Source: a virus. From it: a stretch of 22,541 nucleotides of DNA. Shown piece by piece: positions 19,901-21,316 of the stretch. The translations under genes were made by a program, and so were the position numbers. How positions within the stretch are numbered: the stretch's first letter is position 1; each line of letters begins with the position of its first letter. The notes under the pieces were generated by a model. It was not told the DNA's origin. It searched no databases and was given only the letters and a program-made list of their open reading frames with translations. The stretch spans positions 1 through 22,541 of IMG/VR virus record IMGVR_UViG_3300022752_000423. One strand, given 5' to 3'.

Positions 19901-21051
19901 CGTTACCTGCCGAAAAGGTGACAGTCCCTCAAGAGTATTCGCCTTCAGTAACTTTTGATGGTAATGGTGGTGAGGCTGTTTTGCCTCCTGTTGCTGATGG
20001 TAATCCGACTGATGTTGAAGGGTTTCTGATTGAGGCAGGAATCAACCCTAAAGAGATAGAAATTATTGGAGAGCCAAGAATCAGTCGCTGGCAGGTTGCA
20101 AGGCCTTTCCCTTTAGAACCGATGTGGATGACCTCTGTCCGAATCCGATGGAGAAGGATCAACCCTGAAATCTCTCTGCCTTTGCTTTATAAGCTCGTGA
20201 AAGCAACTAAACCTGTAACCCCTAAACCTGTTGATTCAGGTAAAGCGTTGATTGTTTTATGGTCTGATTTGCAGGTTGGGAAAGTAGATCATAGAGGTAA
20301 CAGTGAATCTTTGATTCAGCGTGTCCGTGAAACACAAGGCAAACTGCTCGCAAAAATTAGAGAACAGAAACCCGAAAAGATAATCTTCTGTGATGTGGGC
20401 GATACGATAGAGAATTTCAGTAATGCTGCCGACATGCATCAGCTACAGTCAAATGACTTGAGTATTATGCAACAGATTGATTTAGCGACATCTCTCGCAT
20501 GGGAAACCCTCAAGCTAATCAGTAAACATGCACCTGTTGTCTATCTGTCTGTAGGGTCAAATCACTGTCAATGGAGAAGTAATAAACAAAGAATCGGCAA
20601 GGTCACTGACGATTGGGGAATCTATATTGGTCGAACACTTGCCAGGCTAAGTAAAGAAGTAGGCTTGCCTATTGAGTTTCGTGAACCTGCTCAACATGAC
20701 GAGAGCCTTGCTTATGACATTTTTGACGATAAGTTTCACATTCTAGGGTTATGGCATGGACACCAATCGCCTAGACCAGATCAAGTGCCTACATGGTGGA
20801 GACAACAATCATTCGGTAAACAACCTGTCCACGCTGCAACAATAGGCGTATCCGGTCACTTCCACCATTTGAGAGTCCTAGAATTAGGGTCAACACCTAG
20901 AGGAACATCACGCTTCTGGATACAAGCCAGCACACTAGATAACGGGTCAAACTGGTGGCGGACAACAGCAGGAGAAGACAGTCAACCTGGACTCGTGTGT
21001 TTCGTGTTAGAGCGTGGCTTAGACTTTACAGGAACAGTCTGGAAGTTATAG
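19885..21051 (+). CDS. Calcineurin-like metallophosphoesterase
   Basis: The start is ATG 19885 (MLEDLALPAEK); a TTG two codons earlier is less likely. In this 388-residue protein the two-metal site is visible: Asp128 (WSDLQVGK), Asp170 and Asp173 (FCDVGDTIEN), Asn226-His227 (SVGSNHCQW), His291 (LWHGHQ) and His325/His327 (VSGHFHH). The first 115 residues are an extension without known motif, containing a Pro/Gly-rich part and an Arg-rich WMTSVRIRWRRIN. Proteins of this type cleave phosphodiesters in nucleic acids or nucleotides. The substrate is unknown; DNA metabolism is likely in this phage. The stop TAG shares its last base with the RNA gene that follows. Confidence 0.85.
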   Translation: MLEDLALPAEKVTVPQEYSPSVTFDGNGGEAVLPPVADGNPTDVEGFLIEAGINPKEIEIIGEPRISRWQVARPFPLEPMWMTSVRIRWRRINPEISLPLLYKLVKATKPVTPKPVDSGKALIVLWSDLQVGKVDHRGNSESLIQRVRETQGKLLAKIREQKPEKIIFCDVGDTIENFSNAADMHQLQSNDLSIMQQIDLATSLAWETLKLISKHAPVVYLSVGSNHCQWRSNKQRIGKVTDDWGIYIGRTLARLSKEVGLPIEFREPAQHDESLAYDIFDDKFHILGLWHGHQSPRPDQVPTWWRQQSFGKQPVHAATIGVSGHFHHLRVLELGSTPRGTSRFWIQASTLDNGSNWWRTTAGEDSQPGLVCFVLERGLDFTGTVWKL

Positions 21052-21128
21052 GGGCTGAAATGGTTTCGATTGCAATCAAGGCCTGCGGGGGCAGTTGCAA
21101 GAATCGAGTTCGAATCTCGACAGCTCCA
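21051..21128 (+). ncRNA. ssrA-like: tmRNA-like RNA, tRNA-like domain only
   Basis: Acceptor strands GGGGCTG (21051-21057) and CAGCTCC (21121-21127) form seven pairs including G3-U70, the alanine identity pair, followed by A as discriminator. GGTTTCGA (21062-21069) is the tmRNA D-analogue segment. The T arm is perfect: TCGAG (21104-21108), TTCGAAT loop, CTCGA (21116-21120). In place of the mRNA-like region and pseudoknots there is a 31-nt stem: TTGCAA (21070-21075) with TTGCAA (21095-21100), a 7-nt bulge, then CTGC-GGGG-GCAG (21083-21094). The 3' CCA is not encoded (ACT follows). The first base is the last base of the preceding stop, so processing from a longer RNA is expected. No normal anticodon arm fits. 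Confidence 0.75.
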
Positions 21129-21142
21129 CTAAAGGAGATCTA

Positions 21143-21316
21143 ATGGCTTCTTACGACTACAAATGTCAACTATGTTTAGAAACAAAAACAATAGTCATAT
21201 CAATCACGGAACAACCTGAAACCCCAAAATGTTCAACCTGTCAAACAGACATGGCTAGAACTTTCGGGATGCAAACCATCATATTCAAAGGAAACGGATG
21301 GGGTAAGGATGCCTAA
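21143..21316 (+). CDS. FmdB-like zinc-ribbon protein (57 aa)
   Basis: Start ATG 21143 has AAAGGAG (21131-21137) six bases upstream. An earlier in-frame ATG at 21095 falls inside the RNA gene and is rejected. The 57-residue protein reads ASYDYKCQLCLET, with Cys8 and Cys11, later KCSTCQTDM with Cys30 and Cys33, and ends IIFKGNGWGKDA, the FmdB-type pattern (Y.Y.C..C, then a CxxC pair and F.G.GW). FmdB-like proteins are small regulators of unknown mechanism and common in actinophages. Stop overlaps the next ATG (TAATG). Confidence 0.75.
   Translation: MASYDYKCQLCLETKTIVISITEQPETPKCSTCQTDMARTFGMQTIIFKGNGWGKDA

Follow-up and report, generated by a model that had tools for sequence, protein, structure and literature searches.

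A tag-less tmRNA reduced to its tRNA-like domain in a phage genome, and a covarying family of related RNAs

The window analysed here is the whole of a 22,541-base virus record. A small RNA gene in this window lies between genes for a phage exonuclease and an FmdB-type zinc ribbon protein (Table 1). All three features are on the same strand and are closely spaced: the TAG stop codon of the exonuclease gene overlaps the RNA, with the last base of the stop serving as the first base of the RNA (21051), and a gap of 14 nt separates the RNA from the zinc ribbon gene. This spacing suggests that the three are co-transcribed and that the RNA is excised from the transcript. The window genes include a WhiB-type regulator, and the host is for this reason predicted to be actinobacterial. 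In a blast comparison of the flanking 2.5 kb with known phages, no match was found.

Table 1. Coordinates of the RNA, its structural parts and the adjoining genes in the window.
Feature	Position	Strand	Details
Upstream gene, phage exonuclease	19879..21051	+	PHROG 284, E 6.3e-55
mini-tmRNA (tRNA-like domain without mRNA-like domain)	21051..21128	+	77 nt plus discriminator A73 (21128); RF00023, R1
5' acceptor strand GGGGCTG	21051..21057	+	7/7 pairs with 21121-21127; G3 = 21053
D-loop GGTTTCGA, no D-stem	21062..21069	+	U17 = 21066, G19 = 21068 (E. coli numbering), SmpB contacts per PMC8363625
P2 (H2) 5' strand TTGCAAT	21070..21076	+	pairs with 21094-21100
P2 cap: purine-rich internal loop (CAAG) and small inner hairpin	21077..21093	+	no stop triplet
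P2 3' strand GTTGCAA	21094..21100	+	pairs with 21070-21076
Linker GAA	21101..21103	+	A at 21102 = A334 equivalent of E. coli tmRNA
T arm TCGAG-TTCGAAT-CTCGA	21104..21120	+	5/5 pairs
3' acceptor strand CAGCTCC	21121..21127	+	U70 = 21125; followed by A73 at 21128
Downstream gene, 57-aa FmdB-type zinc ribbon	21143..21316	+	Pfam Zn_ribbon_8, E 2.6e-7 (below curated cut-off); PHROG 1076

A cmscan of the window, akin to a check proposed in an earlier note on this DNA, identified a match to the Rfam tmRNA model RF00023 at 21051-21131 (+), with a score of 56.6 bits (E 5.6e-20) against a gathering cut-off of 47 bits. The alignment spans the model from end to end (positions 1-374), with approximately 310 of the 374 positions deleted and a 31-nt hairpin in their place. 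The element also scores 79.3 bits (E 1.3e-15) with R1, our own model, of which it is itself a member sequence. Positions 21051-21128 are a complete tmRNA tRNA-like domain (TLD). The coordinates in the earlier note are exact, and its description holds in each part: both tmRNA ends are present, with seven acceptor pairs, a TTCGAAT T loop, a 31-nt hairpin at 21070-21100, and the alanine-type G3-U70 pair at 21053:21125. The stemless D-loop, P2 helix and T arm follow one another in the standard tmRNA order, and the 5' acceptor strand comes first and the 3' acceptor strand last, unlike in two-piece (permuted) tmRNA genes. CCA is not encoded in the window copy, where A73 is followed by CTA. ARAGORN called neither a tRNA nor a tmRNA in the window. 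The RNA does not form a cloverleaf with D-stem and anticodon arm, and an ordinary tRNA was rejected on the ARAGORN result and the tmRNA-type D-loop.

What the RNA lacks is the message. The mRNA-like domain (resume codon, tag frame and stop) is absent, as are pseudoknots PK1-PK4, their place being taken by the hairpin alone. No stop triplet occurs in the window RNA between the D-loop and the T-stem, and the same is true of 45 of the 221 relatives listed (see below); a decodable, stop-ended tag is thus not shared across the family. The stop-triplet check and the RF00023 deletion bear out the earlier statement that this RNA has no tag frame or stop codon.

Seven related phage contigs, found by pattern, carry the RNA with 76-78 of 78 positions identical, whereas the alignable flanking DNA is 63-80% identical; in one of the seven (locus L028) the upstream DNA differs. 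The 78-nt form that the earlier note had suggested seeking in related phages is therefore present there, and compensating changes are found in relatives. The element in the window is real and constrained.

Relatives were sought in IMG/VR with a first pattern consisting of the two tmRNA ends and a short gap, which returned at least 35 stretches, all of them mini-tmRNAs of varied sequence and length. Following further pattern scans, the catalogue holds at least 221 distinct elements at a minimum of 285 loci. Elements of 74-80 nt make up most of those listed, and a second, shorter group spans 62-69 nt; just 61 of the 221 listed encode CCA. With the element masked, the carrier DNA falls into at least 128 nucleotide clusters (100 singletons among those listed). 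A full tmRNA was sought in 28 carrier records and found in none. Among 189 loci, 36 have a tRNA no more than 200 nt away and 144 have no tRNA near. A gap of 48-78 in the pattern for longer forms gave mostly other matches (tandem tRNA genes), and the plausible longer forms among the matches listed were limited to L182 (114 nt) and L191 (105 nt); these TLD-only elements are possible full-to-mini intermediates. One 136-kb viral contig (IMGVR_UViG_3300027749_000047; L089 and L119) carries two different mini-tmRNAs, at 42520 and 109671.

Covariation was assessed in two sets. Set A1 comprises 42 elements for which the acceptor and T stems served as a filter, so that 100% pairing of these stems is partly by construction; P2 was not used in selection. 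Set A2 comprises 53 further elements in which the D-loop was not fixed, in an alignment that was fitted to the model and hence leans towards structure. Within A1, 93.6% of cells are paired, and covariation is 0.734 versus 0.144 or less with partners slid. All seven P2 pairs covary in A1 (93% of cells pair) and six of seven in A2 (95% of cells pair), as do four of five T stem pairs in the relatives of both sets. The acceptor, P2 and T stems of the family covary. Because patterns blind to P2 yield relatives that nearly all form P2, with seven of seven pairs covarying, the element stands far above chance. P2 is closed by a cap with the consensus N-A-A-R-R-C-C, a small hairpin and G-G-R, in which column 29 is A in 41 of 42 elements and the inner pairs are formed in 69-86% (A1, A2). 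This cap is common to elements of many unrelated carriers, and it occupies the place of the tmRNA pseudoknots and tag. A kink-turn was rejected on inspection, the sequence being unfit. To our knowledge, the P2 cap (N-AARRCC-hairpin-GGR) has no known counterpart.

AlaRS recognizes both tRNA-Ala and tmRNA through the identity elements G3:U70 and A73 (PMC3968760). G3:U70 is found in 219 of the 221 elements listed. A scan with an unconstrained acceptor listed 94 distinct matches, 88 of them with seven acceptor pairs; 90 were kept as elements, and of these listed elements 89 have G3:U70 and all 90 have A73, the sole G:C at 3:70 being a slipped acceptor (L399). The adjacent pair 4:69 varies in the same scan (GC 62, CG 14, UA 5, AU 5 and GU 3); in Streptomyces phages BRock and LuckySocke it is U-A, with G3:U70 retained. 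The window RNA has a 7-bp acceptor, G3:U70 and discriminator A; the presence of these alanylation determinants agrees with the earlier note, in which the RNA was held to be chargeable with alanine.

In cryo-EM structures, A15, U17 and A334 form a pocket that holds Trp122 of SmpB, and G19 packs against the protein; the G19C change prevents SmpB binding (PMC8363625). A scan with an unconstrained D-loop listed 124 elements, two of which are tRNAs. The motif GG...GA followed by C or T, which includes G19-A20, is found in 119 of the 124 listed, and U17 in 118 of 119 readable D-loops. All 42 elements of A1 have A at the A334 equivalent, a base for which the A1 patterns did not select. Counting the preceding base, the linker is GGAC in most relatives versus GAA (21101..21103) in the window. 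U17, G19 and the A334 equivalent are nearly invariant in the relatives, and their presence in the window RNA agrees with the earlier note, in which SmpB was suggested as a possible binding partner. Two loci (L481 and L496) have the D-loop GGTTCTAC, with U in place of G19, and are possible natural SmpB-binding variants.

R1, which was built from IMG/VR sequences and a few contigs of metagenome-assembled genomes, also has matches in cultured phages: Streptomyces phages Shaeky, LuckySocke, GiJojo, BRock and pSt2308, and Stenotrophomonas phage Jojan60. Further matches, in Alone3, Tomas and Riptide, score lower. The Shaeky copy (L382 2501-2578; MT701595.1 42932-43009) is within a tRNA array, as are the mini-tmRNAs at cultured Streptomyces phage loci L383-L385, L391 and L567-L569. 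No RNA gene is annotated at the mini-tmRNA sites of the cultured phages. ARAGORN missed the tested relatives as it did the window copy, which explains the omission of mini-tmRNAs from phage annotation. Ruegeria phage RpAliso (25 bits), Gordonia phage GMA2 and Pseudomonas phage PA_L9 (22 bits each) gave blast matches that are not mini-tmRNAs. Matches in Synechococcus and other cyanobacteria (L283, L348, L370 and L375) were found by one pattern, have unpaired acceptors, and are probably parts of permuted tmRNA genes. A mini-tmRNA is also carried by a 27-kb plasmid of Pseudonocardia broussonetiae (NZ_CP053567.1; L570 2501-2578), possibly a phage-plasmid. The Bacillota metagenome-assembled genome Tb.RUG.116 has mini-tmRNAs on two contigs (L314 and L368), the first within an array of approximately 22 tRNA genes on a contig that is probably phage DNA binned with this genome.

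Five Candidatus Poribacteria genomes (L268, L279, L325, L330 and L364) contain a nearly identical 82-nt mini-tmRNA on chromosomal contigs, and three more (L559-L561) have R1 matches. Four of the five also have a full-length tmRNA (approximately 355 nt) adjoining smpB; in the fifth, full tmRNA and SmpB were sought and neither was found. In all five, the mini-tmRNA is followed at a distance of 64-103 nt by a large convergent gene. At L279, L325, L330 and L364 it encodes the same 543-556-aa protein, a PLP-dependent decarboxylase as identified in L330. Compensating changes occur in P2, the cap and the T stem. This looks like a cell-encoded mini-tmRNA alongside a normal tmRNA; PMC11915505 makes no mention of Poribacteria. 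A search of approximately 890 bacterial genomes with R1 returned only the known positive, with few candidates scored per genome, and is weak evidence of absence.

We interpret the window RNA, with moderate confidence, as a tag-less TLD tmRNA of a phage that most likely acts as a competitive decoy of host trans-translation. This is the best-supported function because a TLD-like molecule, according to the summaries of Mao et al. (2009) in PMC4131195 and PMC11915505, strongly inhibits tmRNA in E. coli whether or not it can be charged, perhaps via titration of SmpB. In the proposed mechanism, host tRNA-processing enzymes would cut the RNA from the exonuclease/zinc ribbon transcript and the host would add CCA, after which host AlaRS would charge it with alanine via G3:U70 and A73, both of which it has. 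SmpB would bind the elbow of D-loop and T arm via U17, G19 and the A334 equivalent, contact bases that are likewise present, and EF-Tu would bind the charged acceptor. The RNA would then deprive full tmRNA of SmpB and EF-Tu, and would compete for AlaRS too. Since the charging determinants are conserved, the charged RNA would probably also enter stalled ribosomes and take the nascent chain on its alanine, and would halt there because it brings neither resume nor stop codon. The net effect would be a lowering of host tagging, degradation and ribosome turnover during infection. Titration can suffice, as the uncharged TLD inhibits in the account given in PMC4131195; the fixed alanine identity favours a charged, ribosome-entering decoy over a pure SmpB sponge. 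Two features count against the simplest forms of the decoy: as inhibition needs no charging, a pure sponge leaves the near-absolute G3:U70 unexplained, and titration alone leaves the conserved cap unexplained.

The near-fixed alanine identity, which a sponge would not require, is also the principal argument for the main rival, an unlikely one: tag-less rescue, in which the charged RNA with SmpB would take the peptide on alanine, the non-stop mRNA would leave, and another factor would release the peptide, to the benefit of phage translation. Mitochondrial tmRNAs without a tag frame have been retained along with SmpB (PMC11915505), and some phages, such as Streptomyces phage Annadreamy, have a full tmRNA instead, both of which are consistent with rescue. 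Against it stand the inhibition of tmRNA by a similar molecule in E. coli, as summarized in PMC4131195, the absence of a resume or stop codon, and the fact that no partner release gene adjoins the element in the window. The tRNA arrays of cultured Streptomyces phages and the 36 tRNA-proximal loci would fit an anti-defence decoy that, like phage tRNA-array genes, soaks up or replaces the target of some host factor, a nuclease or sensor, that attacks tRNAs or tmRNA. We consider this distinctly unlikely, as no tRNA is near in the window or at 144 of the 189 loci, and conservation tracks the SmpB contacts and AlaRS identity and no cleavage site.

The G3:U70 pair and A73 (PMC3968760), together with the tRNA-like size, could denote an unusual alanine-type tRNA, used in decoding or as alanine donor in a non-ribosomal reaction, but the lack of a D-stem and of a 5-bp anticodon stem with 7-nt loop, the absence of an ARAGORN call, and the tmRNA-type D-loop with its SmpB contacts make this very improbable. 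Phages commonly integrate into tmRNA genes, and 31-nt tmRNA matches adjoin integrases in some phage records (e.g. Mycobacterium phage Shandong1), which could point to a relic: either a tmRNA gene with its middle deleted or an att site. For the window this is hardly credible, and for the family it is refuted. An att site would retain one end only, whereas both ends are present here with seven of seven acceptor pairs; the RNAs of the window and its relatives are not relics because they are better conserved than the neighbouring genes; and P2 covaries in more than 90 elements. An att site or tmRNA pseudogene was rejected on these grounds.

We tentatively suggest that mini-tmRNAs may be a large, many-lineage phage RNA family of alanine-charged rescue modulators with their own conserved cap, that one bacterial lineage at least, Poribacteria, may keep a chromosomal version as a regulator alongside its normal tmRNA and SmpB, and that inhibiting or diverting trans-translation may be a common strategy. 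If so, such inhibition or diversion would not be the oddity of one mycobacteriophage. DS6A is the single phage named with a tag-less tmRNA in the literature that we found; the present results define a family whose sequence signature can be tested, alanine identity and SmpB contacts being almost fixed and the stems covarying. Cultured carriers make phage attack on, or diversion of, trans-translation testable.

The earlier note supposed that no comparable RNA had been described from a phage, which is incorrect: Table 2 of PMC4131195 gives the tmRNA of Mycobacterium phage DS6A (tmID 11587) as "TLD only". Both are TLD-only phage tmRNAs by description; DS6A belongs to a different phage and host group, and the window form is part of a broad, covarying family. 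The full-length tmRNAs of Streptomyces phages Annadreamy and Faust share the phage-encoded TLD and alanine identity, but retain the tag frame (the Faust record gives ANSKNASAYALAA) that the window RNA is without; in the latter, 31 nt separate the D-loop from the T-stem linker. The two-piece tmRNA of marine phage Melnitz (PMC9004378) has the same two features in common with it but is permuted, whereas the window RNA has its ends in normal order. The tmRNAs of jakobid and oomycete mitochondria, which have no CDS, and the approximately 65-bp genes of Mallomonadaceae plastids (PMC11915505) are also reduced to the TLD and lack a tag frame; these derive from the organelle's own tmRNA, whereas the phage forms would act, if at all, beside a full host tmRNA. 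The ribosome-bound complex of a truncated tmRNA with SmpB and EF-Tu (PDB 4ABR/4ABS; PMC3968760, PMC8363625) demonstrates that a TLD fragment suffices for the A/T-state complex; that fragment was engineered, while the window RNA is a natural gene. Already known, then, are the TLD-only phage tmRNA as a kind and the inhibitory effect of such a molecule; new are the breadth of the family, its covariation, its near-absolute alanine identity, its cap and its cultured carriers.
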